Assembly: GCA_017458335.1 (NCBI GenBank) | Contig: JAFTFT010000042.1 | Location: forward strand, 1 to 55,994 | Direction of reading: 5' to 3' | Length of the DNA stretch: 55,994 bases | DNA from: Oscillospiraceae bacterium | GTDB lineage: Bacteria > Bacillota > Clostridia > Oscillospirales > Oscillospiraceae | Part shown: piece after piece, positions 19,973-36,378 of the stretch | Numbering within the stretch: the first letter of the stretch is position 1 | Layout of the letters: every line of letters begins with the position of its first letter | Translations under genes and position numbers: made by a program | The notes under the pieces: generated by a model | Seen by the model: the letters and a program-made list of their open reading frames with translations, nothing else | The model's database searches: none | Told to the model about the DNA's origin: nothing

Positions 19973-20015
19973 AAAGATACCGGCCGGAGAAGGTGATTCT
20001 CCGGCCGGTATCTTT
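19973..20015. terminator. Strong bidirectional terminator
   Basis: A 19-bp perfect stem (19973-19991 with 19997-20015) with AAA and TTT flanks, between the convergent response regulator and TetR genes. Confidence 0.9.
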
Positions 20016-20038
20016 ATGGGCAAAACAGCTTATACGGC

Positions 20039-20659: not shown

Positions 20660-20669
20660 CTCGGTGAGC

Positions 20670-20716
20670 TTAGTCTAACTAAACCTGAGAATAGCATACG
20701 AAAAAAGTAAAGTCAA
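20670..20716 (-). promoter_or_regulatory. Promoter and likely operator of the TetR gene
   Basis: On the minus strand: TTGACT (20711-20716), 17 bases, TATTCT (20688-20693). Just downstream, at the expected start, is TTAGT-CTA-ACTAA (20670-20682), a 5-bp inverted repeat of the kind TetR proteins use for autorepression. Confidence 0.7.
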
Positions 20717-20795
20717 GGAAAAAAGTTAGAAAGTCATAACCATAGATAAAATATGCTAATTTCGAGAGCCGTTCCGGTACGAATTAAAAAGTGAA

Positions 20796-20821
20796 CCGGA
20801 TTCTCGGTACAGAGAATCCGG
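20796..20821 (-). terminator. Terminator of the alcohol dehydrogenase/HAD operon
   Basis: A 10-bp stem (20796-20805 with 20812-20821). On the minus strand it is followed by TTCACTTTTTAATTC. Confidence 0.8.
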
Positions 20822-20838
20822 CTTGGAAGGATCCAATT

Positions 20839-21501
20839 TCAGGTTCGGGGAGACCCGGACGGAAGGAGAAAGGACAGCAGCTCGTACAGAGACGGGAAAA
20901 CCTGTTCTGCGAGGGAGCGGATCTCTTCCGTCGGCTGCAGCAGATCGGGAACCATCAGGGGATGGGTTCCGGCGGCCGCCGCGGCCCGGATTCCGTTGAA
21001 GGAATCCTCAATCACGCAACAGTCTTCGGGAGCGGCATGCAAAGCCTCCGCTGCCCGGAGGAAAATCTCAGGGTGCGGTTTGGAGTGCGTTACCATGTCT
21101 CCACCGATCACGACGTCAAAGAAATCCAGAAAACCGGCATCCCGCAATTCCCGCCGTACCAGATCGCTGTGCGTAGAGGAGGCAAGGGCAAGCGGAACAT
21201 GCTTTGCCGCCAGAGAGGAAAGCAGCTCCGGCGCCCCCGGCTTCACAGGGAGTCCTTCACGCTCGTAGTGCTCATGATACAGGTCGCGGATCCGTCCGTC
21301 AAAGGCCTCCCAGGGGAAGGAGACGCCATAGCGCTCGGCGAGAATTTCATGGGTGCGGACTGTGGTGGTTCCGATAACGGAAGGATAGACCTCCGCAATC
21401 CCCGGAATGCCGAGTTCTTGAGCGGCCTGAATCCAGAGACGCATGGCCAGGTGCTCGGTGTCAAAGATCACACCGTCCATGTCGAAGATGACAGCCTGCA
21501 T
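20839..21501 (-). CDS. HAD-superfamily phosphatase (beta-phosphoglucomutase/GPP-like)
   Basis: A 220-residue HAD hydrolase. Motif I is FDMDGVIFDTE (residues 6-16) with the nucleophile Asp; motif II is LASSTHS; the Lys of motif III is in HSKPHPEIF; motif IV is VIEDSFNGIRAAAAAG. The alpha-helical cap of subfamily I lies between motifs I and II. Such proteins remove phosphate from small sugar phosphates or phosphoglycolate; the specific substrate is not predictable. It follows the iron alcohol dehydrogenase by three bases and must be cotranscribed with it. Confidence 0.9.
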   Translation of the reverse strand: MQAVIFDMDGVIFDTEHLAMRLWIQAAQELGIPGIAEVYPSVIGTTTVRTHEILAERYGVSFPWEAFDGRIRDLYHEHYEREGLPVKPGAPELLSSLAAKHVPLALASSTHSDLVRRELRDAGFLDFFDVVIGGDMVTHSKPHPEIFLRAAEALHAAPEDCCVIEDSFNGIRAAAAAGTHPLMVPDLLQPTEEIRSLAEQVFPSLYELLSFLLPSGSPRT

Positions 21502-21504
21502 GGC

Positions 21505-22710
21505 TTATGCCTCACGGATGATGCGGCGGATAACCTTCTCACAGCGCTTTTTGTTATAAACGACCGGAACCGGATAGACCGGGTTGGCCTCAGCAAGGGC
21601 CCACCTGACCATCTGCGGGATATCCTCTTCTTTGATGAAATCAAAGCCGGTTGGGATCTCCATGCGCCTGTTCATGGCGCGGATCTCCGCGATGAAAGCT
21701 TTGGCTTTTTCTTCATCGCTTCCGTCGAACTTCACACCGGTGAGTTCGGCCAGATGAGCCAGTTTTTCGTAGACGGCCTCACCGTAATCCTCCAGAACAA
21801 TCGGCAGAATCACGGCGTTCGCGAGACCGTGGGGCGTATTATAGAGACCGCCCAGGGTGTGGGCGATGGCGTGAACATTGCCGACACCGGCACGGGTGAA
21901 GGCAAAGCCGGCCTTGTATGCCGCGATCAGCATCTGGGTGCGGGCTTCCATGTCGTTTCCGTCGCGATAGGCGCGTTCCAGGTAACGGAAGATCTCACAG
22001 ACGGCTTCTTCGGCGAGCCGGATGCTCTCACCGGTGTTATAGGTCCAGCAGATATAGGCCTCAATGGCATGGGTCAGCGCGTCCATTCCCGTTGTGGAAG
22101 TGATTTTCGGCGGAAGCTCCCGGGTCATCTCGGGGTCCAGAACTGCGTACTTCGGGATGAGATGCAGGTCCATGAGTGCGTACTTATGGTGGGTGTCGCT
22201 GTCGGTGATGACGGCAGCGATGGTTGTCTCAGATCCGGTTCCGGCGGTAGTGGGCACCGCGATGAAAGGAGGGATCTTCTTCATGACTTTCAGAAGGCCT
22301 GCCATCCTGCCGACCTCCGTCTTCGGTCGGACGACGCGGGCGGCCGCGGCTTTTGCCGCGTCCATCGGAGAGCCGCCTCCGACGGCGATGAAGCCCTCAC
22401 AGGCGTTGTCCAGATAAAGCTTCTGGATGCGGTTGACGGTGTTGACAGAGGGGTTGGACTCTACCTCGGCAAAGAGTACATAGGAGATGCCGGCCGCATC
22501 CAGCTCGGAGAGAATTTTCGGGGCGAGCTTTTTGCCGATGGTGGGACCGGTCACGACCATGACCTTTCTGACCTTTTCTTTCCTGAGGAGAGAGGGAATC
22601 TTCTGAATGCTGCCGATGCCGGAAACGGGGACGGGACGGCGCCAGTACAGGCAGCGCGCACCGACGTTGAACACCGCCTGGAAGGAGCGGTAATAAGCCT
22701 TTTTTACCAT
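21505..22710 (-). CDS. Iron-containing alcohol dehydrogenase
   Basis: A 401-residue group III dehydrogenase. The NAD(P)-binding GGGSPMDAAKA and the metal ligands are visible: Asp and His in MDALTHAIEAY, and two His in VHAIAHTLGGLYNTPHG. These enzymes interconvert alcohols or semialdehydes and aldehydes with NAD(P)H. It is divergent from a tungsten aldehyde ferredoxin oxidoreductase gene, so aldehyde handling links the two sides. GGAGG lies eight bases before the ATG. The first ~20 residues are basic and aromatic, slightly longer than in close relatives. Confidence 0.93.
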   Translation of the reverse strand: MVKKAYYRSFQAVFNVGARCLYWRRPVPVSGIGSIQKIPSLLRKEKVRKVMVVTGPTIGKKLAPKILSELDAAGISYVLFAEVESNPSVNTVNRIQKLYLDNACEGFIAVGGGSPMDAAKAAAARVVRPKTEVGRMAGLLKVMKKIPPFIAVPTTAGTGSETTIAAVITDSDTHHKYALMDLHLIPKYAVLDPEMTRELPPKITSTTGMDALTHAIEAYICWTYNTGESIRLAEEAVCEIFRYLERAYRDGNDMEARTQMLIAAYKAGFAFTRAGVGNVHAIAHTLGGLYNTPHGLANAVILPIVLEDYGEAVYEKLAHLAELTGVKFDGSDEEKAKAFIAEIRAMNRRMEIPTGFDFIKEEDIPQMVRWALAEANPVYPVPVVYNKKRCEKVIRRIIREA

Positions 22711-22740
22711 GTGGAAGTCCTCCGAATCATTGATGCTTTT

Positions 22741-22842
22741 ACTTTACCACCGGGGAGATAAAACCGCAAGGACGATTTCCGGATTCTTTCGGAACGCCGG
22801 AAACGAGTGGCTCTTCCAATTTCCCGCTTTTTGGGGTATGAT
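22741..22842. promoter_or_regulatory. Divergent promoter region of the alcohol dehydrogenase and first AOR
   Basis: Minus strand: TTGCGG (22764-22769), 17 bases, TAAAGT (22741-22746). Plus strand: a weak TTCCAA (22814-22819), 17 bases, TATGAT (22837-22842). Between them is a 7-bp inverted repeat TTTCCGG, 14 bases, CCGGAAA (22776-22803), possibly an operator shared by both directions. Confidence 0.4.
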
Positions 22843-22873
22843 GGAGACAGGCTTTCGAAAGGAGCGGAGAACG

Positions 22874-24793
22874 ATGACAAATTACTGCGGATACATGGGG
22901 AAGGTCCTGCTGCTGGATCTGGGAACCCATACAGCGGAAAACTATATCTGGACCGATCTGGACCGCGAAAAGTACATTGGCGGCAAAGCCATGGCGTCCA
23001 AAATCCTCTATGACAACCTGACCGGAGCGGAGAAGCCTTTTGATCCGGAAAACCTCATCGTGATCGCGACAGGCCCTCTGACCGGTACCGGTGCGCCGTC
23101 CTCCAACCGCTTTGACATCTCGTCGCTCTCACCGCTGACGGGCATTACCTCCTCCTCCAACTGCGGCGGAAATTTCGGTCATTATCTCAAAAAAGCCGGA
23201 CTCGACGCCCTGATTATCCGGGGAACGTGTGAGAAACTCAGCTGGATCGAGATCAACAACGGCGAGTTTATCTTCCATGACGCACGGGAGCTGCGGGACC
23301 TGAAGTGCGGAGAAACCCAGGCGGCGCTGCAGGAGAAGCTGAATGCCGAACACGGGAAGAAGGTCAGCTGCGGTATGGTCTGCATCGGACCGGCAGGAGA
23401 AAACCTGGTGCGTTATGCCTCGGTCATCAGCGGAGAGCGCGCCGCGGGCCGGGCCGGGATGGGCGCCGTCTTCGGCAGCAAGAACCTGAAGGCGATTACC
23501 GCCGCGGGAGATGCGGTCCCGTCGATCTATGATAAGGAAGGAGCGGCAGCGCACCGGAAGAAGTGGGTGAACTACATCCGCCGCCATCCGCTGACCGGGG
23601 AACAGCTGCCGAAAATGGGCACCGCCGGGCTGGTGAGTTCGATGCAGGTACACGGCCTGCTCTCGACGCGCAATTACGCCAGAGGGCAGTTTGAGCAGTT
23701 TGAAGCGGTCAGCGGCGAAGCGCTGGCGGAAGAGCTGACTGTCACGAACAGCGGCTGTCTCTCCTGTCCGATCCGCTGCACGAGACGGGTGCCGGTGGAC
23801 GGGAAGACCGTCAAGGGACCCGAGCTGGAGACCCTGGGACTCCTGGGCGGAAATATTGAAAACGCAAATCTGGAACAGATCTGCCACTGGAATTATGAAT
23901 TGGACGAGCTGGGCATGGATACCATTTCAACGGCAGGAACCATTGCCTGGGCCATGGAGGCAGGCGAGAAGGGACTCTGGGAGAGCGGCCTGCGATTCGG
24001 AGAGACAGAAGGACTCTCAAAGATTTTTGACGATATCGCGCACCGGCGCGGCATCGGCGCGGAACTCGCCGAAGGGAGCAAGCGCCTGAGCGAGAAATAC
24101 GGCGGAAAAGACTTTGCCATCCAGTCCAAGGGCATGGAACTGGCCGCTTACGAGCCGCGGCGCGCCGTGGGACAGGGACTCGGCTACGCCGTGGCAAACC
24201 GGGGCGGATGTCACCTGAACGGAGGCTACCTTGTCGTGCTCGAGGGCCTGGGCATGAATGTCAACGGACAGACTCCGCACGGGAAGGCGGACCTCTGCAT
24301 GGTGATGCAGGATCTGATGGAAGCCATCTCCTGCGGCGGTCAGTGCCTCTTTACCTCGTACGGAGTGGTCCCGGCCTTCATGGTCCGCAATCCAAACGGA
24401 ATCCTGCAGCGGGCAGTCAATGCCATCGTCCCCTTTATGGGCCCTGCCGTGCGGATTTACAACAAAATCCCTGAGATCGCCTGCTTCAACATCCCCTTGA
24501 TTCCGTATCCGACAGAGCTCCGATACACCACCGGGATGAAGCTGACTCTGGGCGAGTTTACCCGGATCGGCGAGCGGAGCTATAACGTGGAGCGCGCGGT
24601 GAACGCCCGCTTCGGGGTCAGCGCCGCCAACGACAAGCTGCCGAAGCGCCTGACCGACACGCTGCAGGATCCGGGAAACCCGAAGACGCGGGTGCCGCTG
24701 GAGCAGATGAAACGGACTTATTACCGGGCCCGCGGCTGGGGGAAGAACGGCCTGCCGGGTGAGAAGAAGCTTCGGCGTCTGGGGATCCGCTGA
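22874..24793 (+). CDS. Tungsten aldehyde ferredoxin oxidoreductase (AOR family), first copy
   Basis: A 639-residue AOR-family enzyme that oxidises aldehydes, or reduces acids, with ferredoxin, using a tungsten bis-pyranopterin and a [4Fe-4S] cluster. Cluster ligands Cys295, Cys298 and Cys302 are in GCLSCPIRC, with a fourth Cys likely in GGQCLFTSYG. The N-terminal domain has the expected GGKAMASKILYD and TGPLTGTGAPSSNRF, and the cofactor contacts include AGRAGMGAVFGSKNLK. The start at 22874 is nine bases behind AAAGGAG. It overlaps the MoaD-like gene by one base (TGATG). No signal peptide is present. Confidence 0.93.
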   Translation: MTNYCGYMGKVLLLDLGTHTAENYIWTDLDREKYIGGKAMASKILYDNLTGAEKPFDPENLIVIATGPLTGTGAPSSNRFDISSLSPLTGITSSSNCGGNFGHYLKKAGLDALIIRGTCEKLSWIEINNGEFIFHDARELRDLKCGETQAALQEKLNAEHGKKVSCGMVCIGPAGENLVRYASVISGERAAGRAGMGAVFGSKNLKAITAAGDAVPSIYDKEGAAAHRKKWVNYIRRHPLTGEQLPKMGTAGLVSSMQVHGLLSTRNYARGQFEQFEAVSGEALAEELTVTNSGCLSCPIRCTRRVPVDGKTVKGPELETLGLLGGNIENANLEQICHWNYELDELGMDTISTAGTIAWAMEAGEKGLWESGLRFGETEGLSKIFDDIAHRRGIGAELAEGSKRLSEKYGGKDFAIQSKGMELAAYEPRRAVGQGLGYAVANRGGCHLNGGYLVVLEGLGMNVNGQTPHGKADLCMVMQDLMEAISCGGQCLFTSYGVVPAFMVRNPNGILQRAVNAIVPFMGPAVRIYNKIPEIACFNIPLIPYPTELRYTTGMKLTLGEFTRIGERSYNVERAVNARFGVSAANDKLPKRLTDTLQDPGNPKTRVPLEQMKRTYYRARGWGKNGLPGEKKLRRLGIR

Positions 24794-25047
24794 TGGTGAC
24801 GGTAAAACTCTTCGGAACCCTGCGCCTGGACAGCGACGTCAAAGAACTTACTGCTGAGGCGGATACCATACGGGCGCTGTATCCGCTCGTTCTTGCGGAG
24901 ATCCGGAAACAGAAGCCGGACAGCGGCATCACGGAGAAAGCGCTGAAATCGTGTCTGATCGCCGTGAACGGGAAGCAGGCCACGCCGCAGGCAAAGCTCC
25001 GGGACGGAGATACGGTATATCTCTTCCCGGCGGCGGCAGGCGGATGA
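24793..25047 (+). CDS. MoaD/ThiS-like sulfur carrier protein next to the first AOR
   Basis: An 84-residue ubiquitin-fold protein that starts VTVKLFGTLR and ends in AAAGG. The C-terminal Gly-Gly is the site that becomes a thiocarboxylate. In molybdopterin synthesis MoaD donates the dithiolene sulfur. AOR-associated copies like this are common in tungsten-using anaerobes and may serve the tungsten pterin. Start and stop overlap with the AOR gene, so the two are translated together. An insertion (RKQKPDSGITEK) makes it a little longer than the second copy near 36.5 kb. Confidence 0.88.
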   Translation: MVTVKLFGTLRLDSDVKELTAEADTIRALYPLVLAEIRKQKPDSGITEKALKSCLIAVNGKQATPQAKLRDGDTVYLFPAAAGG

Positions 25048-25084
25048 TCTGCACAGCAGATAAGTGTCATAAAATCAAAAAAGC

Positions 25085-25120
25085 TCAGGGCTGCACGGCG
25101 AAAATGCCGTACAGCCCTGA
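25085..25120 (-). terminator. Terminator of the tup operon
   Basis: A 15-bp stem with one mismatch (25085-25099 with 25106-25120). On the minus strand it is followed by GCTTTTTTGATTTTATG. It may also slow the plus-strand AOR transcript, but the T-run is only on the minus side. Confidence 0.8.
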
Positions 25121-25153
25121 AACTGTTAAGGAAACTCATAAGAACAGAAAGGA

Positions 25154-25807
25154 TCAGATCCCGTAGAACTCGAGAAAGCGGCGAAGCTCTTCCGTCCCGG
25201 GAGAAGAGAGAAGCTGTGAGGCAGCACCCTGTTCCCGGAGCTCGCCCCGGTGGAGAAAGAGCAAATGCTGCGCGATGCGTCGGGCCTGCTGCAGGCTGTG
25301 TGTTACCAGCAGGATCCCGGCGCCGGTGTCGCGGCAGTAATCCGAGAGCAGAGCCTCGGCGGCAAGGGTGGATTCCACATCCATCGCGGCGGTCGGCTCG
25401 TCAAGGATCAGCAGCTCATAGTCGCGCATCAGCAGGCGCGCGAGAGCCATTTTGGCCGTTTCGCCGCCGGAGAGCCGCCTGGCGGACTGACGGGCCAGCG
25501 CGTCGATCTGCAGGCCGCGGAGAAGCTTTTCCCTGCGCCTGGTGTCGCTCCCGTTGAGGGCAAGATTTCGTGCGACGCTCATGCGAAAGGCATAACTTTT
25601 CTGCGGCATATAGCCGACAGAGAGCGTCGTGAGGAGCGGGCACTTCTGATCGGAGCGCTCGATGCCGGCGAGGACCCTGGCCAGAGTGGACTTGCCGCTG
25701 CCGTTCGGGCCGATGACGGCGGTGATGCAGCCATCCGGCAGCTCCAGATCCGGAAAGCGCAGAACCGTCCGGTTGCCGTAGCTTTTGGAGAAAGAGGAGA
25801 TCTTCAT
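25154..25807 (-). CDS. tupC: Tungstate ABC transporter ATP-binding protein
   Basis: A 217-residue ABC ATPase: Walker A GPNGSGKST (residues ~32-40), Q-loop in GYMPQKS, signature RLSGGETAK, Walker B LLILDEPTAAMD, and the switch His in VTHSLQQA. It powers tungstate uptake from the cytoplasmic face. It overlaps tupB by four bases and has GAGGAGG eight bases before its ATG. The tungstate assignment rests on tupB and tupA and on the surrounding tungsten enzymes. Confidence 0.92.
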   Translation of the reverse strand: MKISSFSKSYGNRTVLRFPDLELPDGCITAVIGPNGSGKSTLARVLAGIERSDQKCPLLTTLSVGYMPQKSYAFRMSVARNLALNGSDTRRREKLLRGLQIDALARQSARRLSGGETAKMALARLLMRDYELLILDEPTAAMDVESTLAAEALLSDYCRDTGAGILLVTHSLQQARRIAQHLLFLHRGELREQGAASQLLSSPGTEELRRFLEFYGI

Positions 25808-26490
25808 CGGCTCAGCCTCCTCTGCATCAGGGAAACGGCAATATTGACCGCGAGGGACAGCAGCATCAGGATCAGACCCAGCGCGATGCCGAGGGTGAAG
25901 TTCCCGCGGTTGGTGTACTGCATGATGGCAGTGGTCATGACGTTGGTTTTCCAGGCGATGGCGCCGCCCACCATCGAGACCGCACCCACTTCGGCAATCG
26001 CGCGGGCAAAGGCCAGCAGGTAGACGGAGAAAATGGAATAGACGCATTCGTTCACCAGCAGGAGAAAGCGCTTTCCCCAGCCGAAGCCGAGCCCTCGGGC
26101 AGTTTCCCGAAGTGAAGGGGCGATCTCTGCCACATAGGTTTCCATGTTGCCGATGACGATGGGGGTGATGAGTACCACCTGGGCGATGATCATGAGCTTT
26201 ACGGTGAAGAGCAGCTTCAGGTGGCGGAAGGGACCGACTCCGGAGAAGAGCATATAAAACAGCAGACCACAGACCACAGGCGGCATGCCCATGAGCGTGC
26301 GGTTGAGCACGACCAGCACGCCGCGGCCGGGAAAACGGCCGGCGCCCAGTGCGATGCCGACGGGCAGGCCGATCAGCAGCGCCAGCACCGAGCTTGTAAG
26401 GCACAGCCGCGCCGTTGTGGAGAGAATATTCAGCAGCTCGGGATCTGACGAAAAGATCAGAGCGATTGCCTTTTGGATTGCGGTACCCAT
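25804..26490 (-). CDS. tupB: Tungstate ABC transporter permease
   Basis: A 228-residue permease with about five membrane segments. The cytoplasmic EAA-type loop that contacts the ATPase is ETARGLGFGWGKRF, and the AEVGAVSMVGGAIAWKTNVMT stretch is typical of TupB proteins. The start at 26490 follows AGGAG by seven bases; an upstream in-frame ATG would add a hydrophilic leader without a ribosome site. It lies 108 bases behind tupA, with a hairpin in the gap. Confidence 0.92.
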   Translation of the reverse strand: MGTAIQKAIALIFSSDPELLNILSTTARLCLTSSVLALLIGLPVGIALGAGRFPGRGVLVVLNRTLMGMPPVVCGLLFYMLFSGVGPFRHLKLLFTVKLMIIAQVVLITPIVIGNMETYVAEIAPSLRETARGLGFGWGKRFLLLVNECVYSIFSVYLLAFARAIAEVGAVSMVGGAIAWKTNVMTTAIMQYTNRGNFTLGIALGLILMLLSLAVNIAVSLMQRRLSR

Positions 26491-26515
26491 TCCAACACTC
26501 CTGACAGAGACAGAT

Positions 26516-26550
26516 AAGGATAGCCCTGGGGAATACCCCAAGGCTATCTT
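26516..26550 (-). promoter_or_regulatory. Hairpin between tupA and tupB, likely attenuator
   Basis: A long hairpin: GATAGCC with GGCTATC and GGGG with CCCC around AATA (arms 26516-26531 and 26536-26550). It is followed on the minus strand by CCTTATCTG, a poor T-run. A second smaller repeat (CAAATCA, 26567-26589) lies just behind the tupA stop. Such hairpins often lower permease expression relative to the binding protein. Confidence 0.6.
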
Positions 26551-26598
26551 ACTTGATGTGGAGAGACAAATCAAGAAAATCCTGATTTGACCGGTGGC

Positions 26599-27579
26599 TT
26601 ACATGACGCCGTCGTTGGCAAGGAAGGTGAGGAAGGTAGCCTTGTCGGTGAGAATATAAGCGCCCATCTGCTCTGCCATCACGAGGCAGGCGCCCATGCC
26701 GGTGTTGGCGGAAATGTACCAGTCGGTGTAGTCCTTAAAGGACTCGGGTTCCGCGGTAATGCCCAGCTCTTCGGGCCAGAGGGAGAGCTCCTTGGTGTGG
26801 GTACCGGAACCGTCGCCGCGGGAGACAAAGGTGAACTTGCCGTCGGCGATGGCCTTGAAGGCCGCGAGGACATCCTCCGCGTCCTTGACCCCGGCGGGAT
26901 CGGCGGACGGGCCGCAGAGCACGAAGTAATTATACATATAGGTCAGACGCTCGGATTCCATGCCGTCCAGAACACAGGCGAAGCCATCCGCAACAAAGGC
27001 CTCTTCCTGCTTCTTGGAGTGGACGAGAATCAGGTCGGCGTTGCCCATCTTGGCGTTGGCAATGGCCTTGCCGGTACCGGCGGAATAGACCTCGACCTCA
27101 TAGCCGTATTTCTCTTCAAACATCGGCAGCAGGCTGCCAAGCAGACCGGAGTCATTGACGGAGGTGGTGGTGGACAGACGGATCAGCTTTGTCTCCTCAG
27201 TGGCTTCGGGGATGTCGGCCGTGGAGACAGGGCGGTCTTCCTTGAGATAGAAGAGGTATTCGCCGTACTCGGCAAAGCCGTAGTCCGCCGCGGCAGCCTC
27301 TCCCTCTTCGGAGAGCAGCCAGTTGATCAGGGCAGCGGCGCCGACGGTGTTGAGCGCCACATCCTCGACGGCGTTGCCGTCGGCATCCACGAAGGGAGCC
27401 TCGGGATTCACGGCCAGCAGGGTGTAGTTGTTGATCATGTTGTCGTCGGCTTCCATCAGGATCATCGTGTCAACGACAAGCGCGTCGGTCTCTTCAGCGG
27501 GTGCGTCTGCGGCAAAGGCGGAGATCCCCAGCGAGAAGAGCATGACCAGGGCAAGCAGCAGGGAAAGGGTCTTTTTCAT
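26599..27579 (-). CDS. tupA: Tungstate-binding protein TupA, circularly permuted
   Basis: A 326-residue exported binding protein with a signal peptide (1-23). Residues ~133-326 follow the start and middle of ordinary TupA: TTTSVNDSGLL (138-148), the GTGKAI loop, FVSRGDGSGTHTKE (251-264) and GMGACLVMAEQMGAYILTDK, then the protein stops shortly after TFLTF (315-319). The part that should follow is found at the N-terminus, residues ~33-112: ILMEADDNMINNYTLLAVNP, INWLLSEEG and ADYGFAEYGEYLFYL. The domain order is therefore rotated. The anion-binding motifs TTTS and SRGDGSGTH are intact, so it probably binds tungstate. AGGAGG precedes the ATG. Confidence 0.9.
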   Translation of the reverse strand: MKKTLSLLLALVMLFSLGISAFAADAPAEETDALVVDTMILMEADDNMINNYTLLAVNPEAPFVDADGNAVEDVALNTVGAAALINWLLSEEGEAAAADYGFAEYGEYLFYLKEDRPVSTADIPEATEETKLIRLSTTTSVNDSGLLGSLLPMFEEKYGYEVEVYSAGTGKAIANAKMGNADLILVHSKKQEEAFVADGFACVLDGMESERLTYMYNYFVLCGPSADPAGVKDAEDVLAAFKAIADGKFTFVSRGDGSGTHTKELSLWPEELGITAEPESFKDYTDWYISANTGMGACLVMAEQMGAYILTDKATFLTFLANDGVM

Positions 27580-27594
27580 GATAGTTCCTCCTGT

Positions 27595-27662
27595 AAAAAA
27601 AATACTCTTTCCAGAACAAAACAGACCCAGCATGGCTGTGTCGGTTCTGCTTCCAGAAAGAG
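27595..27662 (-). promoter_or_regulatory. Terminator-like hairpin in the tupA leader
   Basis: On the minus strand CTCTTTC (27656-27662) pairs with GAAAGAG (27605-27611), and inside it CAGAAC (27644-27649) with GTTCTG (27612-27617). Eight T residues follow (27595-27602), and the tupA ribosome site comes directly after. A smaller hairpin, CGCTTTTGAAAAGCG, lies upstream near 27672-27686. The order hairpin, T-run, ribosome site is that of a transcription attenuator or riboswitch platform. I do not recognise a known aptamer. Confidence 0.6.
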
Positions 27663-27702
27663 GCTCGTCCACCGCTTTTCAAAAGCGTATGAAATTGAAA
27701 AA

Positions 27703-27731
27703 ATAGTATCACCCGCAGAACCAAAATACAA
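27703..27731 (-). promoter_or_regulatory. Promoter of tupABC
   Basis: On the minus strand TTGTAT (27726-27731), 17 bases, TACTAT (27703-27708), with TGA just before the -10 giving an extended -10 element. Predicted start is near 27696, so the leader is about 115 bases. Confidence 0.6.
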
Positions 27732-27740
27732 GAATCAAAG

Positions 27741-27753
27741 GCGCGTTCCGCGC
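27741..27753 (-). terminator. Short hairpin behind the moeA/flavoprotein operon
   Basis: GCGCG, TTC, CGCGC: a short but GC-only stem 52 bases behind the last gene of the minus-strand operon, followed on that strand by CTTTGATTCTTGTATTTT. It is a weak candidate terminator, placed just upstream of the tup promoter. Confidence 0.4.
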
Positions 27754-27804
27754 GAAATAAGATGAAGATGAACGAAAATGAACATATAAAGAGGTCCTGC
27801 GGCG

Positions 27805-28749
27805 TTACCGGTAAAGGCCGCGGACTTCCGGAAAAATGTCCGGATCGTGCTTGGACGCGGCAAGGGCGGAAGCGGCCAGCCTGCCGACGGAAGCGGCCTC
27901 GGCGACCGCAGAGTCCACCAGCTCGTGCACATGGTGACAGTTCCCGGCGAAGGAGAGCCAGTCCGGTGAACCGAGACCGGAGACCAGCGTCCGGTCCGGA
28001 ATCAGACCGACCACCGTCACCAGCGTGTCGCAGGGAATATGCGTCTGCGCTCCGGTATCAAGCTGCCGGAGAAGAACGCCGGTGAGTCTTCCGCTGCCGT
28101 AAAGCTCCGTGACCGTGGTCCGCAGGAGCAGCGGAATGCCGCTGGGCTCGAGAAAGCGGTGATAATTGCGGGCGAGTCCGCCGTAATGATCCTCCTGTTC
28201 CGCAACCGCGATGACGTGGGCGCCGGCCTCCTGCAGCCCAGCCGCCATGATCATGCCGAGATCCCCGCTGCCGAGAATGAGGATCTCTCTGCCGGGGAGG
28301 CGGTGCCGGAGATTCAGAAGCTCCTGGGCCTGTCCGGCGGTAAAAACACCGGAGGGACGCGTCCCTGTTACCGGGAGAGAGCCGATGGAGCGCTCGCGGC
28401 AGCCGGCGGCAAGGATCAGGCGCTGGAAACCAAGCTCCCTCAACCCTGTGCGGGAGGACAGAAGGGCACGACGATTCCCGGTGACGGAAAGAACCTCCGT
28501 CTCCGTCAGCAGACGGACACCGGTGTTCTGCAGCCCAGAGAGGAGAAAGGAGGCATATTCCGGTCCAGTTATTTCCGAACCGAAGACGGCCCGGCCGAAG
28601 CCCCGGTGACTGCACTGGCGGAGGATACCGCCGGGAGCAGAGGCACCGTCCACAAGAACCAGGTCACGGACACCCGCCTTCCAAGCGGCGGCAGCGGCGG
28701 ACATCCCCGCGGCGCCCGAACCGATGATCAGAAGTTCACAGTGTTCCAT
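27805..28749 (-). CDS. FAD/NAD(P)-dependent oxidoreductase (GlpB/HcnB-like)
   Basis: A 314-residue two-dinucleotide-binding flavoprotein. The FAD motif IIGSGAAGMSAA is near residues 7-18, and the NAD(P) motif LILGSGDLGMIMAAGL is in the middle. There is no redox-active CxxC, so it is not a thioredoxin reductase. It overlaps the upstream GlpA-like gene by 14 bases and has GGAGG five bases before its ATG, so the two proteins are made together and probably form one complex. Similar pairs occur in glycerol-3-phosphate and amino-acid dehydrogenases. In this operon with moeA genes, electron transfer linked to the tungsten enzymes is possible (inference). Confidence 0.85.
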   Translation of the reverse strand: MEHCELLIIGSGAAGMSAAAAAWKAGVRDLVLVDGASAPGGILRQCSHRGFGRAVFGSEITGPEYASFLLSGLQNTGVRLLTETEVLSVTGNRRALLSSRTGLRELGFQRLILAAGCRERSIGSLPVTGTRPSGVFTAGQAQELLNLRHRLPGREILILGSGDLGMIMAAGLQEAGAHVIAVAEQEDHYGGLARNYHRFLEPSGIPLLLRTTVTELYGSGRLTGVLLRQLDTGAQTHIPCDTLVTVVGLIPDRTLVSGLGSPDWLSFAGNCHHVHELVDSAVAEAASVGRLAASALAASKHDPDIFPEVRGLYR

Positions 28750-30175
28750 CTGCGCCTCCGTACACGAGGGAATCCCCGCCGGACTGCGTGACCGCTTCTT
28801 CCGAAATTCCAAGTGCTTCCGCAAGGATGGGAATCAGCTTCTGCCGGCAGCGGGCTCCCTGGCAGGGCCCCATCCCGGCGCCGAGCCGGTGCTTGAGTCC
28901 GTCCAGCGTCACCGCACCGCGGTGAATCGCCTCCAGAACCTCGCCGCGGGTGATTCCCTCGCAGCGGCAGAGCAGTTCGCCAAAGTCAGGATTCTGCCGG
29001 ACCGCCTTACAGCGTGCGTCAAAACCCAGACGCTTCATGCGGGGGATCCCGCTGCGTCCGGGAAAAAAGTCCGGGTTCGGAGAAAGCCGCAGATCTGCGG
29101 CCGTCTCCCCGGCAAGATATATCCCGAGCTGATCGGCACAGGTCAGACCGGGAGTCTTGACCCCGATCAGACTCCGGAAGCCGGGAGCGGGATGCTCGAT
29201 GACGAAGGTACCGATGCTGCTGCCGTCGGGGCGCTGCGGGTTCGGCCGGAGCGCCGCAAAGGAACGGATGATGTGTTCCTCGGAGAAGCCCGGGAAAACC
29301 TGCCCGGCGAAGCGGCGGACAAAGGAGAGGCCCGCTTCGCTTACGGACCAGTCGATCCCGTTCTCCCGCTCCGAGGGGCCGAGCAGCAGGCTGCCCTCCA
29401 CGGTTGGGACCGCGTTGAGACCTTTCCCGCCATCCTCCGGCTCCACCTGGATGATGTGAGAAGGATGCAGTCCGGCATCCCGGTCAAGAATCAGATAGTC
29501 ACCGGAAGTGGGATGGATGCTGACATCGCAGGGGAAAATGAGCCTCTGAACCTGATCGGCCTGCATGCCGGCGCAGTTGACAATCGCCCGGGCGAAAAAA
29601 TCCCCCTGTGTGGTGATGAGCCGGTAGCCGTCCTGTTCGGGACGAATGGAGAGCACACTTGTGTTCAGGGAAAGCTGCGCCCCGTTCTGCAGGGCGTTTT
29701 CGCAGGCGGCGATGCAGAGCTCCCATGGATTGACCGTGCCGGCGGACGGCGCATACAGGGCGCTGCTGACGCCGGGGGTGAGGCAGGGCTCCATGGCTTC
29801 GGCCTCCCGGCCGGAGACCAGAGAGAGACCAGGCACAGCGCTCTGCAGGCCTCTGTCGTACTTCAAGCGGAGCACGGCGTCCGCCTTCGGCCCGTAACTG
29901 AGCATCAGAGAGCCGCAGCGGGAGAAGGGAACATCCAGCTCCTCGCACAGTCTGCCGAAGGCCTCGTTCCCCCGGACGGTCATCGACGCCTTCAGGGTTC
30001 CAGGCTTGTGGTCATAACCGGGATAGATGATCGCGGAATTGGCCCGCGAGATGCCGGTACAGACATCCTCCCGGGCTTCCAGAAGAAGGACGGAGGCGTC
30101 CCAGCGGCAGAGGTTCCGGGCGGCAAAGCAGCCGAGCAGACCTCCGCCGATGACGGCGACATCGAAACGCTCCAT
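28736..30175 (-). CDS. FAD-dependent oxidoreductase (GlpA-like) with BFD-type iron-sulfur domain
   Basis: A 479-residue flavoprotein. Residues 1-~370 are a DAO-type FAD domain with VAVIGGGLLGCFAARNL at the start. The C-terminal domain is BFD-like, with cysteines at 403, 405, 438 and 443 (CRC and CQGARC), which should hold a [2Fe-2S] cluster. The layout matches the A subunit of anaerobic glycerol-3-phosphate dehydrogenase and relatives; a DUF1667 gene, often the third member, is absent. The ATG lies one base behind the stop of the moeA fusion gene (TGAGATG), so translation is coupled. The substrate is unknown. Confidence 0.85.
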   Translation of the reverse strand: MERFDVAVIGGGLLGCFAARNLCRWDASVLLLEAREDVCTGISRANSAIIYPGYDHKPGTLKASMTVRGNEAFGRLCEELDVPFSRCGSLMLSYGPKADAVLRLKYDRGLQSAVPGLSLVSGREAEAMEPCLTPGVSSALYAPSAGTVNPWELCIAACENALQNGAQLSLNTSVLSIRPEQDGYRLITTQGDFFARAIVNCAGMQADQVQRLIFPCDVSIHPTSGDYLILDRDAGLHPSHIIQVEPEDGGKGLNAVPTVEGSLLLGPSERENGIDWSVSEAGLSFVRRFAGQVFPGFSEEHIIRSFAALRPNPQRPDGSSIGTFVIEHPAPGFRSLIGVKTPGLTCADQLGIYLAGETAADLRLSPNPDFFPGRSGIPRMKRLGFDARCKAVRQNPDFGELLCRCEGITRGEVLEAIHRGAVTLDGLKHRLGAGMGPCQGARCRQKLIPILAEALGISEEAVTQSGGDSLVYGGADGTL

Positions 30176-30176
30176 C

Positions 30177-32087
30177 TCAGACCAGGTCGATGATCTCACC
30201 GGGCTGATCCAGGGTATATCCGCCCATGGCGGTGATGCGCGCTGCAAAGGCCGGGCTCTTCAGCGTTTCGATGAGCTGCCGGACCATGGGGGAAGACCAG
30301 GCGGTCTCGGGGATCAGCAGGTCATATTCTTCCACACAGACGGGGATGAAGTCCAGGTCATAGAGCCGGGCGGTGGAATAAATCCCCATGCCCGCATCGG
30401 CGGAGCCGCTGGCAATCTGAACGGCGACGGAGTTGTGGGTCATCTCCTCACGCTCGTAGCCGTAGATCTGCTCCGGGCGGATGCCGTGTTTCCCGCAGAG
30501 ATAGTCCATCAGGATGCGCGTGCCGGAGCCTTTCTGGCGGTTGACATAGCGGACACCCTCCCGCGCGATGTCGGAGAAGCCCTGAATCCCAAGCGGATTT
30601 CCCTTCTGCAGCATGAGCCCCTGCTGCCGCCCGACGCAGCGGACCAGATAAACGCCGCCGTGGGGGAAGTATTTTCGGATATAACTGCGGTTATAGATAC
30701 CGGTCTCGGTATCCAGCAGGTGGATGCCGGCGGCATGTGCTTCCCCGCGGCGGATGGCCATGATGCCTCCCATGGAGCCGACATGGGCGGAGCTGACATA
30801 CATGCTGTGGTTTGTGGTATGGATCAGGTCGGAGAGCTCATCCAGCAGCGGGTCGTGGCTGCCGATGACGACGAGGGTGTTCTTGAGTTTTTTCTTCGCA
30901 TTCAGCAGGCGGACGCGGACTTCTTCACCGGACTGGAAGCCTTCGGTCCCCTGGGGGACCTCGACGATGCCGTCGGCCTTCATAAAGGAGGAGACCACAC
31001 CGCTGCCGCGGGGCAGAGGAGAGGCGGTGAGCCGGTCGCCGACATAACCCATCCGGACGCGGACGTATTCCTGATACTTTAGACCGGAGACCACCGGCCG
31101 TGTCAGAATGGCACGGGTCCGGCTGCGGCTTTCACTCTCCCGGCCGAGCCACAGTTCAATCAGCGGCCGCAGCAGCTCCTCAATGACGATGATGCCGGAG
31201 ACCGGGTAGCCGGGGACACCGAGAATCGGCTTCGGCCCGCGGCAGCCGAGGATCGCGGGCTTGCCGGGCTTGATGGCGATGCCGTGATACAGCACCTGCC
31301 CGACGTCCCGGATGGAAGCGGTGGAGTAATCGTCACGGCCGGCAGAGGAGCCGGCGTTCAGGATGACCATGTCGCACTCATCCGCAGCCTGCCGGAGCAC
31401 GGCACGGATCTCGTCAAAGCGGTCCGGGACAATGGGATAGGTTTTCGGTACAGCGCCCCAGTCACTCAGCATGGCGGAGAAAATGGAGGAATTGAATTCC
31501 AGGATTTCTCCGGGCTTCGGATCGGCACAGGGCGGGATAATCTCGTCGCCGGTGGGAATGATGGCGACGACGGGCCTGCGGATGACCTCGAGTTCCGTTA
31601 CGCCGCCGGCGATCATGGCGCCGATGGCCGCGGGCGTGATCTCTGTATAGCCGGGGAGAATCATCTCTCCGGCGCAGATGTCCTCTCCGATCTGCCGGAT
31701 ATGCTGCCAGGGAGCGGCCGCGGCATGGATGGTAACGCTGCCGTCATCGTTTTTCACGAGCTCTTCCACCATGATCACCGCATCGCAGCCCTCCGGCACC
31801 GGGTCTCCGGTGTCGACGACGACATACTGGTCCTCCCGAAGCGTAACGGGAGTGGTCTCCGTCGCGCCGAAGCTGTCCCGCGCGTGCAGGGCGATCCCGT
31901 CCATGGCGCTGGCGGCATAGTGAGGGGCGTTGATGTTGGCGTAGACGGCGCGGGAGGTTACGCGGCCGTAGGCATGCTGTACGGCGACCGTTTCGGTCTG
32001 CGGACCGAAGCCGTTTTCGCGCAGCAGGGCGAGGTAGTCTTTTTTCGCCTGCTCCAGCGGGATGTTGGTCAGATATTCAAAGCTCAT
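30177..32087 (-). CDS. moeA: MoeA fused to a periplasmic-binding-protein-like domain
   Basis: A 636-residue protein. Residues 1-~400 are MoeA, the enzyme that inserts metal into adenylylated pterin: SAMDGIAL, VDTGDPVPEGCDAVIMVE, PTGDEIIPP, the NAGSSAGRDDYS loop and GVPGYPVSG. Residues ~403-636 are a PBP-like domain of the type linked to molybdate regulation, with GSHDPLLDELSDLI, NRQKGSGTRIL and IASGSADAGMG. No signal peptide is present, so it works in the cytoplasm. The same domain is in the regulator at the head of the operon. In a tungsten gene region it may select tungstate or sense the cofactor (inference). Confidence 0.92.
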   Translation of the reverse strand: MSFEYLTNIPLEQAKKDYLALLRENGFGPQTETVAVQHAYGRVTSRAVYANINAPHYAASAMDGIALHARDSFGATETTPVTLREDQYVVVDTGDPVPEGCDAVIMVEELVKNDDGSVTIHAAAAPWQHIRQIGEDICAGEMILPGYTEITPAAIGAMIAGGVTELEVIRRPVVAIIPTGDEIIPPCADPKPGEILEFNSSIFSAMLSDWGAVPKTYPIVPDRFDEIRAVLRQAADECDMVILNAGSSAGRDDYSTASIRDVGQVLYHGIAIKPGKPAILGCRGPKPILGVPGYPVSGIIVIEELLRPLIELWLGRESESRSRTRAILTRPVVSGLKYQEYVRVRMGYVGDRLTASPLPRGSGVVSSFMKADGIVEVPQGTEGFQSGEEVRVRLLNAKKKLKNTLVVIGSHDPLLDELSDLIHTTNHSMYVSSAHVGSMGGIMAIRRGEAHAAGIHLLDTETGIYNRSYIRKYFPHGGVYLVRCVGRQQGLMLQKGNPLGIQGFSDIAREGVRYVNRQKGSGTRILMDYLCGKHGIRPEQIYGYEREEMTHNSVAVQIASGSADAGMGIYSTARLYDLDFIPVCVEEYDLLIPETAWSSPMVRQLIETLKSPAFAARITAMGGYTLDQPGEIIDLV

Positions 32088-32102
32088 TTCAAACCCTCCG
32101 TA

Positions 32103-33317
32103 TCAGTTCAGATAGACCTGGACCGGAGCGCCTTTCGGAAGACCCTCGCAGTCCCGTTCAATGCAGAAAAAGCCGTCCGCTCCGGCCAGCTGCGTGATGA
32201 GCCCGGACTTGGAACGGATGGGAAGCGCCAGCACGCGCCCGTCCTGCCGGATCAGGCGGCAGGCGTTCACCTGAGCGCGGCCGTGGTTGGCGCCGACACT
32301 CTCGCTGAGCTCGGCCGTCACGGACCAGAGAGGACGCTCCCGCTCCGCAAGCCGGTCCAGCAGAGGAAGCACAAAGAGCCGGGCAACCACAAAGGCTGCG
32401 ACCGGGTGGCCGGGCAGACCGATGAGAGGCCTGTTTCCGGCACGGCCCATGATGGTGGGCTTGCCCGGCTTGAGGGCAATGCCGTGCAGCAGCAGCTCGC
32501 CGAGCGACTCGATGATGCGGCAGGAGGCGTCCTTGACGCCGACGCTGCTGCCGCCGGAGAGAAGCACCGCATCGCACTCCTGTACGGCGCGGGTGACGGT
32601 TTCATGCAGAAGGCTCTCATCATCGACGACGATGCCGTAAGAATGCGCTTCAGCCCCCTGCTCCGTGAGCAGCGCGCTGAGCAGGGCCGTGTTTACATCA
32701 CGGACCTGACCGGGCAGGGGCTGCTGATCGGGCGGGACGAGCTCATCCCCGGTGGAAATGATGCCGACGTTCAGCCTGCGCTGAACCGGGACAAGCGTCT
32801 TTCCGACGGCGGCCAGCGCTCCGATGTCCTGCGCCGTGAGAACGCGTCCGGCCCGGAGAACGATCTTGCCGGGGCAGACGTCGTCTCCGCGGAAAATGAC
32901 GTTCATGCCGGGGGCGCCCGGCTTCATGATGCCGATGGTGCCGTCTCCGTAGTCTTCGGTATACTCCAGCATGACCGCACAGTCGGCCCCCTCCGGCAGG
33001 GCACCGCCGGTCGGCACATAGGCACAGTTTTCACGAAGAAGGGCAAAGCCTGCGTCCTCGCCCATACGGATTTCCTCCTGGAGGGAGAGAACGGCAGGAA
33101 TCGCGTCGGAGCAGCCGAAGGTATCCGCGGCCCGAAGGGCATAGCCGTCGACGGTGGAGCGGTTGAAGTCGGGCACATATTCCTCCGCGGTGATATCCTC
33201 GGACAGGGTACGCCCTGCCGCCGCCTCGAGCGGAACGAATTCCGTCAGCCCCGGAATGGGTTGAAACTTGTCGTGAATCAAACGAAGGACTTCCTCGGGT
33301 GTCTTAACCTGAAGCAT
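32103..33317 (-). CDS. moeA: Molybdopterin molybdenumtransferase MoeA, stand-alone copy
   Basis: A 404-residue MoeA of normal length with all four domains: VDGYALRAAD, YVPTGGALPEGADCAVMLE, the GDELVPPDQQPLPGQ loop, LSGGSSVGVKD and GLPGHPVAA. It ligates molybdate or tungstate to the pterin dithiolene. It differs from the fused copy in the next gene (for example STVDGYA against SAMDGIA), so the two may handle different metals or steps. It lies three bases behind the regulator gene with GGAGGTG as ribosome site, and 15 bases before the fusion gene. Confidence 0.94.
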   Translation of the reverse strand: MLQVKTPEEVLRLIHDKFQPIPGLTEFVPLEAAAGRTLSEDITAEEYVPDFNRSTVDGYALRAADTFGCSDAIPAVLSLQEEIRMGEDAGFALLRENCAYVPTGGALPEGADCAVMLEYTEDYGDGTIGIMKPGAPGMNVIFRGDDVCPGKIVLRAGRVLTAQDIGALAAVGKTLVPVQRRLNVGIISTGDELVPPDQQPLPGQVRDVNTALLSALLTEQGAEAHSYGIVVDDESLLHETVTRAVQECDAVLLSGGSSVGVKDASCRIIESLGELLLHGIALKPGKPTIMGRAGNRPLIGLPGHPVAAFVVARLFVLPLLDRLAERERPLWSVTAELSESVGANHGRAQVNACRLIRQDGRVLALPIRSKSGLITQLAGADGFFCIERDCEGLPKGAPVQVYLN

Positions 33318-33320
33318 CTG

Positions 33321-34262: not shown

Positions 34263-34295
34263 GGCGGATCACCTTCAAGAATCATATTCCCGATT

Positions 34296-34324
34296 ATTAT
34301 AGCGGGTTTGCGCTCACGATACAA
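34296..34324 (-). promoter_or_regulatory. Promoter of the HTH-PBP/moeA operon
   Basis: On the minus strand TTGTAT (34319-34324), 17 bases, TATAAT (34296-34301). Confidence 0.75.
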
Positions 34325-34341
34325 GAGTTAGAATGGTCGAA

Positions 34342-34433: not shown

Positions 34434-34451
34434 GGAAATGGGGATGGAAGC

Positions 34452-34480: not shown

Positions 34481-34560
34481 AAAGTCACGCAGATCGAAAC
34501 AAAAGAAATATTGTTTGTAATTACCAGGAATCAAATACAGTCAAATACAGGAGGTACATG

Positions 34561-36378
34561 ATGAGCAACGCTTACTATGAAAAAATTGCCCGCATCAATC
34601 TGACCACCGGTGAGATCAAGGTCGAACCGCTGGACCTCAAAATTGCCCAGAAGTTTATCGGCGGCCGCGGCCTCGGCACCAAGATTCTCTATGACGAGGG
34701 CGTGGCAACTGCAGACCCGCTGTCCGCAGACAACAAACTCGTCTACATCACCGGACCCATGACCGGCTCCAACTCCCCGTCTTCCGGACGTTACATGGTC
34801 GTGACCAAGTCCCCGCTGACCGGCATGATCGCCTGCGCCAACTCCGGCGGCATCTGGGGCGCCAAGCTGAAGTTTGCCGGCTGGGACGCGCTGATCGTGG
34901 AAGGCGTGGCGCCGGAGTGGAGCTACATCAACATCACGGATGACAAAATCGAGATCCTCGACGCCAGAGAGTATCTGGGCATGCTGAGCGAAGAGATGGA
35001 CGACAGGCTGAAGGCGAAGCACGGCGATGCGTGTTCCGTCCTGAACATCGGCCCCGCCGGTGAAAAGCAGGTGCTGCTGGCCGCTGTCATGAACGACAAG
35101 GACCGTGCCGCCGGCCGTTCCGGCACCGGCGCCGTCATGGGCAGCAAGAAGCTCAAGGCCATCGTCGTCACCGCCACCCGCAAGCAGCTGGATGTCATCG
35201 CCGACGTAGAGGCCCTGAAGGAGGCCAACAAGGCCTGCCTCAAGATCATGACCGCCAATCCCCTGACCGGTGAAGGTCTGCGCGCCCTCGGCACCGCTTC
35301 CCTCGTCAATGTCATCAACGGCATCGGCGCCCTGCCCACCAAGAACTGGCAGGAGAGCTACTGCCCCACCGCCGATCAGTTCTCCGGTGAGACGCTGGCG
35401 GAGAAATACCTGGTCAAGCCCGGCGCCTGCTATCACTGCCCGATCGCCTGCGGCCGCATCATCAAGCATGACGACAAGGTCGTCGGCGGCCCCGAGTACG
35501 AGCCTCTGTGGGCTTACGGAAGCGACTGCGGCAACGATGACCTCTACACCATCGATGAGTGCAACCGCCTCTGCAACGAGTACGGCCTGGACGCCATCGG
35601 CGTGCCCTGCACCATCGCGGCGGCTATGGAGCTGTACCAGAACGGCTGCATCAAGGAAGAAGACTGCGCCGGCGTTCCGCTGGAATGGGGCAGCAAGGAA
35701 GCCCTGATCGAGTGGACCAAGCGCATGGGCGACCCCAAGACAGAGCTTGACTGGCTCATGTCCTCCGGCTCTGCCCGGCTCTGCGAGCACTACGGCCACC
35801 CCGAGTTCTCCATGAGCGTCAAGAAGCAGGAGATCCCCGCCTACGACGCCCGCGCCATCCAGGGCATCGGCATCAACTATGCCACTGCCAACTGCGGCGC
35901 CGCCCACGTGCGCGGCTATATGATCGCGCCCGAAGTCCTCGGCATTCCTGCACAGCTGGACCGCACCGTCACCGACGAGAAGGCCGGCTGGGCCAAGACC
36001 TTCCAGGATCTGACAGCCGTCATTGACTCCATGGGCAACTGCCTGTTCACTTCCTTCGCCCTGGGCGCACCCGAGTATGCAAGCCTGCTCAACGCCGCCA
36101 CCGGCACGAACTACACGCCGGAGGAACTGCTGGAGGTCGGTGACCGGATCTTCAACATCGAGCGTATGTTCAACAAGGCCGCCGGCATGAAGCCCGAGGA
36201 TGACCGCCTGCCCAAGCGTCTGCTCACCGAGCCCATCTCCAACGGCCCCTCCAAGGGCATGGTCAACAAGCTCGACATCACCCTGCCGCAGTACTATGCC
36301 GCCCGCGGCTGGGTCAACGCCTTCCCGACAGACGAGACGCTGAAGAAGCTCGGCCTTGACGAGTGCGTAGGGAAATAA
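34561..36378 (+). CDS. Tungsten aldehyde ferredoxin oxidoreductase (AOR family), second copy
   Basis: A 605-residue AOR-family enzyme with tungsten bis-pyranopterin and [4Fe-4S] cluster. Cluster ligands Cys290, Cys293 and Cys297 are in GACYHCPIACGR, and a fourth Cys is likely in GNCLFTSFA. N-terminal cofactor segments are GGRGLGTKILYD, TGPMTGSNSPSSGRY and GRSGTGAVMGSKKLK. Codon use is strongly biased (many C-ending codons), more like tuf than its neighbours, which suggests high expression. The second of two adjacent ATGs was chosen, six bases behind AGGAGG. It is about 30 residues shorter than the first copy. Confidence 0.94.
   Translation: MSNAYYEKIARINLTTGEIKVEPLDLKIAQKFIGGRGLGTKILYDEGVATADPLSADNKLVYITGPMTGSNSPSSGRYMVVTKSPLTGMIACANSGGIWGAKLKFAGWDALIVEGVAPEWSYINITDDKIEILDAREYLGMLSEEMDDRLKAKHGDACSVLNIGPAGEKQVLLAAVMNDKDRAAGRSGTGAVMGSKKLKAIVVTATRKQLDVIADVEALKEANKACLKIMTANPLTGEGLRALGTASLVNVINGIGALPTKNWQESYCPTADQFSGETLAEKYLVKPGACYHCPIACGRIIKHDDKVVGGPEYEPLWAYGSDCGNDDLYTIDECNRLCNEYGLDAIGVPCTIAAAMELYQNGCIKEEDCAGVPLEWGSKEALIEWTKRMGDPKTELDWLMSSGSARLCEHYGHPEFSMSVKKQEIPAYDARAIQGIGINYATANCGAAHVRGYMIAPEVLGIPAQLDRTVTDEKAGWAKTFQDLTAVIDSMGNCLFTSFALGAPEYASLLNAATGTNYTPEELLEVGDRIFNIERMFNKAAGMKPEDDRLPKRLLTEPISNGPSKGMVNKLDITLPQYYAARGWVNAFPTDETLKKLGLDECVGK

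Follow-up and report, generated by a model that had tools for sequence, protein, structure and literature searches.

The window analysed here is a stretch of 55,994 nucleotides from an Oscillospiraceae bacterium, and it contains a gene whose product carries the motifs of TupA, the receptor of the tungstate ABC importer, in an unusual order. The initial annotation read this protein as circularly permuted, which raises the question of whether a complete TupA domain has indeed been rotated, how such a rotation would have arisen, and what it would mean for the permease that the receptor serves.

The gene, permuted tupA, occupies 26599..27579 on the minus strand and encodes 326 amino acids plus a stop: the start codon is at 27579, the last sense codon ends at 26602 and the stop lies at 26599-26601. 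The protein opens with a signal peptide of residues ~1-23 (27511..27579, minus strand), which ends in AFA at a cleavage site judged by eye and is without a lipobox cysteine. Residues 36-112 (27244..27474, minus strand) are the equivalent of the C-terminal segment of ordinary TupA, as placed by phmmer, the rotation test and profile comparison; from about residue 39 to residue 111, behind the signal peptide, the 326-residue translation reads 'ILMEADDNMINNYTLLAVNPEAPF...AALINWLLSEEG...YGFAEYGEYLFY'. Alignments of permuted proteins delimit a linker, residues 113-131 (27187..27243, minus strand), that runs from the old C-terminus to the old N-terminus and in which P117, I123, A126, T127 and T130 are invariant or nearly so (27 and 29 aligned permuted proteins). 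The linker is followed by 'IRLSTTTSVNDSGLL', containing TTTS at residues 137-140, and the same three comparisons assign residues 132-322 (26614..27186, minus strand) to the N-terminal and middle part of ordinary TupA. ILTDKATFLTF spans residues 309-319, and the protein ends with LANDGVM at residue 326, so that it does stop soon after TDKATFLTF, as annotated.

Searches with single models find mainly the second of these parts. The best Pfam match is PBP_like_2 over residues 129-319, and the NCBIfam TupA model (NF041772) aligns residues 133-322 with profile positions 17-192 of 266 at 132.1 bits; its curated cut-off of 400 bits is not reached by the window protein. None of nine proteins scanned reaches 400 bits, including five ordinary-order TupA that score 190-244 bits, and automatic annotation with this cut-off may miss many Clostridia TupA. 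No other TupA-like gene was found in the window's genome, which is 84% complete in 44 contigs: 25 further matches at E ≤ 1, of which the lowest value is 3.2e-4, mostly cover the signal peptide region only, and the longest of them (L004, query 4-121) is a protein of the phosphonate-binding type.

Among solved structures compared by phmmer, the best match is the ordinary TupA of Geobacter sulfurreducens (3lr1): query residues 132-319 align with chain residues 6-178 and query residues 36-64 with chain residues 183-212, in swapped order; the latter stretch is weak in this single-sequence comparison, at 4.5 bits. Profile-profile comparison gave a far clearer picture. The N-terminal segments of 94 permuted proteins match the C-terminal segments of 41 ordinary ones with a probability of 99.6% and an E value of 1.5e-24 over 70 columns (41 of 55 ordinary rows were used, the other rows being without the anchor pattern), which confirms the annotated position of the ordinary last segment, now at about 36-112 behind the signal peptide. 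The remainder of the permuted protein matches ordinary N-terminal parts at an E value of 1.3e-74. In the crossed controls, probabilities were 0.2% for permuted N-terminal segments against ordinary N-terminal parts, and 0.5%. This comparison carries the main weight of the case for permutation and, as sequence evidence goes, we regard it as decisive. TupA homology covers the whole domain, both parts matching within one frame, and the description of the protein as a rotation and not a truncation stands: a truncated TupA is ruled out by the presence of both parts, and an unrelated N-terminal domain by the profile comparison with its crossed controls.

The rotation test agrees. When the mature protein was compared by global alignment, in all its rotations, with 12 of the 64 ordinary TupA open frames, the best rotation scored above the original order against all 12, by 64 to 138 points, with the best cut at residues 113-133. 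It also exceeded the best of 50 shuffled-segment controls in each case, by 34 to 103 points; against L131, for example, the score rose from 476 to 614 on rotation, and the best of 50 shuffled controls reached 511. Moving the segment to the C-terminus before alignment, a check proposed with the initial annotation, thus improved the match to every ordinary TupA tried. Once rotated, the protein matches NCBIfam TupA as a single stretch (18-253 of 266, 141.3 bits, versus 17-192 and 132.1 bits unrotated) and likewise 3lr1 (chain residues 7-212 of 236, 159.3 bits versus 152.2). Rotation gains only 7 to 9 bits against these single known models, the moved segment being both short and diverged, and the 3lr1 match ends at chain residue 212 of 236. 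The canonical TupA order, with the TTTS part first and the ILVEGD...LF segment last, is not found here; because the segments are swapped, the protein is a permuted variant and not a canonical member of the family. Together, these comparisons confirm the swapped order in the sequence and support the predicted circular permutation of a complete TupA domain.

A search for the same order in other genomes, also suggested at the outset, returned 96 further distinct proteins, or 97 with the window's. In the family sample, 36 of 250 genomes match at E ≤ 1e-15, of which 27 are permuted (the window's own included, in one piece), 8 are ordinary and 1 is diverged (G041). At the same threshold, none of the 27 permuted family genomes carries an ordinary TupA alongside. 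G025 has a further match (71% identity, truncated by the end of its contig), which ends at the point where permuted proteins do. In the order sample, seven of 295 genomes match: the window, one further permuted case (G344), one genome with a permuted and an ordinary copy (G356) and four ordinary ones. The class sample has 47 matches among 391 genomes, with permuted forms in the window and in three other families (G558, G714 and G871); the other 43 start at model position 83 or later, as ordinary proteins do, or have the moved segment as a separate stretch behind, and the match in G691 is cut by a contig end. Across the phylum sample 187 of 398 genomes match and, among the matches listed, all but the window's are in ordinary order, starting at model position 91 at the earliest. 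Among named genomes, the best 80 of 368 candidate loci are all permuted; 46 of these loci are titled Oscillospiraceae or Ruminococcaceae, many are from ruminant gut and one is from Flavonifractor sp. An92. Four genomes of the window's own genus in the family sample (G004, G109, G174 and G224) are without a TupA match at E ≤ 1e-15, and the tungsten locus looks patchy within this genus.

These numbers bear on two ways in which the swapped order might mislead. It could result from faulty assembly or binning of an ordinary tupA, since the window's genome is fragmented and incomplete (44 contigs, 84%) and most relatives are, judging by their titles, metagenome-assembled. We give this virtually no credence. 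An assembly error is excluded because 97 distinct proteins have the same order; the aligned permuted proteins also share their linker and end points, and the permuted gene is present in a single-contig genome of 4.3 Mb (G078, one of the 27 permuted family genomes) and in the Flavonifractor sp. An92 record (L096), which is not marked as a metagenome-assembled genome. The other possibility is a domain replacement, in which the N-terminal segment derives from a different solute-binding protein and not from TupA's own C-terminus; the authors of TpMglB-2 considered such an event for their protein (PMC4990184). An insertion of about 11 residues (61-71) within the segment, found in fewer than 20% of ordinary rows, would fit a foreign source, but the segment specifically matches the C-terminal segments of ordinary TupA, and its 46% identity to L136 (the same gene as L131) is near that of the remaining protein (53% to L131). 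We therefore consider replacement very improbable and retain circular permutation of TupA itself.

Both the receptor and its permease were placed in trees, which were quick searches with SH-aLRT support only. For TupA, 153 rows were reduced to 123 by dropping, among the permuted rows, near-copies above 93% identity and 4 that had no clean anchor. In the resulting tree of 123 rotated sequences, the 64 permuted ones are set apart by a single branch (support 100, stem length 0.81); the nearest ordinary TupA come from G468 (L131/L136), G050 (L035/L039), G1176 and G1256, with a support of only 92. The tree of partner TupB (58 permuted-linked, 38 ordinary) likewise has the permuted-linked sequences on one branch (support 100, stem 1.51), with those of G468, G1176 and G1256 as the nearest ordinary TupB (support 98). 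The 9.5 kb locus of G050 contains no TupB-like frame. Thus the permuted branches of TupA and TupB share their nearest ordinary relatives, and because each forms one branch, one event, inherited with the transporter, is indicated. Judged by these trees, the permutation is not a one-off; it is a single event common to a clade found for the most part in the same taxonomic family as the window. L130, L137 and L138, which come from other families, are nested inside the permuted clade, a placement that suggests either transfer between families or metagenome bin errors.

We propose that the permutation arose once within Clostridia-like bacteria. A tandem duplication of tupA followed by trimming of both ends is a plausible and probable route, though no duplicated intermediate was encountered among the sequences examined. 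Tandem pairs of ordinary tupA-like genes occur in other lineages (L143:1291-3331 and L182:191-2238), and such pairs are the raw material needed for permutation by duplication. The permuted TupA would then have been inherited, and probably transferred, together with its own TupB, and would have replaced the ordinary TupA in nearly all sampled hosts (G356 keeps both).

How the rotation maps onto the two lobes can be read against Desulfovibrio alaskensis TupA, in which lobe A consists of A2-R76 and Y201-E251, lobe B of A91-Q200, and the anion site of T9-T11, S12, H59, R118, T124 and D170 (PMC5517513). The equivalents in the window protein, from alignment to 5my5 with an offset of 23, are T137-T139, S140, H187, R254, T260 and D312. 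We take 5my5 to be the TupA entry of D. alaskensis G20, whose numbering fits the published one with that offset. On the minus strand, the TTTS motif (T137-S140; placed by sequence, alignment and the published site) lies at 27160..27171, the SRGDGSGTH loop (residues 253-261, with R254 for R118 and T260 for T124) at 26797..26823, and D312, the counterpart of D170 within LTDKATF by structure-chain alignment, at 26644..26646. TTTS and the His, Arg, Thr and Asp of the site are all present in the window protein, and each motif recurs in 96 or 97 of the 97 distinct permuted proteins; the anion-binding motifs are as intact as was first claimed.

Mapped through the alignments and the published lobe limits, the new termini would lie within lobe B, at D. 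alaskensis positions between ~180 and ~188, and the tether would therefore have moved from lobe A to lobe B; the signal peptide or lipid tether is predicted to be on lobe B instead of lobe A. By the same limits (PMC5517513), residues 36-112 would comprise the end of lobe B, the crossing strand and the C-terminal part of lobe A. We picture the conserved linker of ~19 residues as joining the two original termini, which both belong to lobe A of the clam-shell, and the chain as having been opened in lobe B, between 'TDKATFL' and 'ILVEGD', the latter being the stretch by which the chain returns to lobe A. The chain path would now be lobe B - lobe A - lobe B, with lobe A built from one stretch. Such a rotation should preserve the fold, both crossings between the lobes and the residues of the anion site (TTTS, a His, the Arg and Thr of SRGDxSGTH, and the Asp of LTDK), and the permuted TupA should still close on tungstate and pass it to TupB.

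The clade is marked by short insertions at 61-71, 202-208 and 280-285 and by linker columns 119-124. In a table of sites with 55 ordinary rows kept (four long-branch ordinary rows were dropped), Ala97 is found in 96% of permuted rows, versus isoleucine in 98% of ordinary ones. A lipobox cysteine is present in 73 of the 97 permuted TupA and absent from 19, the window's included; 3 are unclear and 2 were not scored. The calls were made with a simple pattern, and L095, counted as having a lipobox, is doubtful. On the permuted TupA tree the lipobox state changes at least 10 times, and the members without a lipobox would be non-lipidated receptors of cells that presumably have a single membrane.

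The window also carries genes of tungsten metabolism. An aldehyde:ferredoxin oxidoreductase family gene, for a tungsten-type enzyme, lies at 22709..24793 (plus strand) and a second at 34558..36378 (plus strand, AFOR_N at 34582-35175); these are the two such genes found in the genome, and both sit in the window. The former is adjoined by a gene for a ThiS/MoaD-like small protein (24793..25047, plus strand), and a MoeA with a C-terminal PBP_like (PF12727) fusion is encoded at 30177..32087 on the minus strand. MoeA inserts metal into the pterin cofactor. A separate ModA is encoded elsewhere in the genome. Among the 80 named permuted loci, many of which end short, 28 have an oxidoreductase homologue and 50 a MoeA-fusion homologue. 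From this setting and the conserved site residues, tungstate is the likely ligand of the permuted TupA.

Directly downstream of tupA are tupB, for the permease (25804..26490, minus strand; start read as the ATG at ORF residue 29, the longest ORF starting at 26574), and tupC, for the ATPase (25154..25807, minus strand; start assigned by reading), which overlaps the tupB stop. Of 104 permuted open frames whose sequence extends far enough, some of them duplicates of the same gene, 100 show this arrangement with tupB directly downstream; in the remaining 4, tupB is also downstream on inspection, and L021 is the same gene as L040. Between tupA and tupB (26490..26602, minus strand) are two strong stem-loops (z -5.2, 0 of 200 shuffles as stable), a possible attenuator, giving more receptor than permease, or mRNA stabiliser. 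An Rfam scan of 20000-36000 returned just two hits at E ≤ 0.5, each to a eukaryotic family and short of the gathering score, and an upstream RNA switch is thus not supported.

The initial annotation called these neighbours otherwise normal. That tupB and tupC adjoin the receptor gene is correct, but TupB is not quite normal: it belongs to its own branch, and two otherwise invariant residues are replaced. Ordinary TupB was picked up for 42 of the 64 ordinary open frames (window TupB as query, 40 bits, within 400 bases) and 37 distinct sequences were kept; 'invariant' refers to those 37. Three of the 22 positions at least 95% constant among them are replaced in the permuted clade: N205, Asn in 37/37 ordinary sequences, is Ala in 84 of 85 permuted partners and Gly in one; R211, Arg in 37/37, is Asn in 85/85; and G117 is Arg in 74/88. 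The window TupB carries A, N and R at ORF positions 205, 211 and 117 (ordinary N, R and G). Hydropathy and family knowledge place all three in predicted loops outside the membrane. Clade-specific sites in external loops number 5-6 of 12, an enrichment that is not significant (p 0.09-0.13, with loop limits drawn by hand). No obvious insertions or deletions are seen in permuted-clade TupB among 17 aligned sequences displayed. The median ratio of TupB to TupA distance is 1.70 for permuted-ordinary pairs, 1.95 for ordinary-ordinary pairs and 2.33 for permuted-permuted pairs (L133 and L110 were left out of this comparison, and L133 of the site table). By these ratios, TupB changed no more than TupA when the clades parted, and excess TupB divergence between clades as a sign of adaptation is not supported (1.70 versus 1.95). 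Within the permuted clade, TupB is relatively faster against TupA than among ordinary pairs (2.33 versus 1.95).

What remains to be weighed is the function of the permuted form. It might keep the fold and serve another oxyanion, such as molybdate, or act as a sensor. Asn292 would speak for this, being present in 94/94 permuted rows where 55/55 ordinary rows have glycine, as would a diverged relative in G041 (L038:2968-4068). This lipoprotein-like frame aligns colinearly with permuted TupA (26% identity over query 53-324), but the TTTS and SRGDxSGTH motifs have been lost and the 8 kb around it contain no frame resembling TupB or TupC; it is possibly a permuted receptor reused for another role. 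For the clade as a whole we think a different ligand unlikely, given that all published site residues are kept, that tupB and tupC adjoin in the window and tupB in the relatives, that oxidoreductase and MoeA-fusion homologues are frequent in the named loci, and that the genome has its separate ModA. Tungstate import being the preferred role, the permutation could still be functionally neutral, fixed by chance, with docking unaffected by a tether on lobe B. Periplasmic binding proteins often still fold after engineered permutation, and the permuted clade's TupB is neither obviously gapped nor disproportionately diverged from ordinary TupB; the replacement of two otherwise invariant TupB residues throughout the clade, and the permuted form standing alone in the 27 family genomes that have it, argue against neutrality, to which we give a little less than an even chance. 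The adaptive counterpart, that the tether was re-sited to lobe B while the receptor-facing loops of the permease co-evolved and lost the otherwise invariant Asn and Arg of a GGN..TR motif, we regard as tentative and rather doubtful. Because the loop enrichment is not significant and TupB shows no excess change, changed docking is offered as a hypothesis. If it is true, receptor and permease of the clade would pair exclusively with each other, in an altered geometry of docking or retention, and the clade would be a natural experiment on chain topology and tethering in ABC import.

Taken together, these observations make it highly probable that the window protein is a permuted TupA receptor of a tungstate ABC importer, which would have arisen once and been inherited with its own TupB. 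Because local matches cover mainly the TTTS-to-LTDK part, a permuted TupA can look truncated and, as it also misses the NCBIfam cut-off, tungsten users may be undercounted among such bacteria. A tungsten-enzyme survey scored the presence of tupA by BLASTp (PMC13328260).

The closest known systems are the ordinary TupA of G. sulfurreducens (3lr1) and D. alaskensis G20, to which the protein is homologous along both parts, with the same anion-site residues; it differs from them in segment order, in the ends, which would have moved from lobe A to lobe B, and in the linker and the three clade-marking insertions. The window TupB is a homologue (query 41-250) of ModB of a molybdate/tungstate transporter (2onk chain C). 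The receptor partner of that ModB is presumably unpermuted. A looser parallel is found in the imelysin-like proteins of Bacteroidales, described as a natural, clade-restricted permutation in uptake-associated proteins with close unpermuted relatives (PMC3143127); these are all-helical and not of the solute-binding-protein fold.

For the permutation itself, the nearest precedent is TpMglB-2 (Tp0684) of Treponema pallidum, a glucose receptor of type I that is naturally permuted and retains ligand binding and closure; its authors proposed the name 'Type Ic' and suggested tethering as a possible explanation (PMC4990184). Both cases are natural permutations of a two-lobed ABC receptor common to a clade. 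In TpMglB-2, three strands of the N-lobe moved to the C-terminus and there are four lobe crossings, whereas in permuted TupA a C-terminal segment moved to the N-terminus and two crossings are predicted. Nor is the type I fold shared, the window protein being homologous to TupA and PBP_like_2. We take TupA to be a solute-binding protein of the type II class. In the open-licence literature, among the papers listed and at the level of titles and the starts of abstracts, no natural permuted TupA and no permuted ABC receptor besides TpMglB-2 were found; as far as these searches showed, this would be the second, independent natural permutation of an ABC-importer receptor. In the tungstate receptor, the permutation is represented by 97 distinct proteins and accompanied by a separate permease lineage and by unpermuted relatives. 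With this clade it can be tested whether docking depends on the topology of the receptor and on where its tether is attached.
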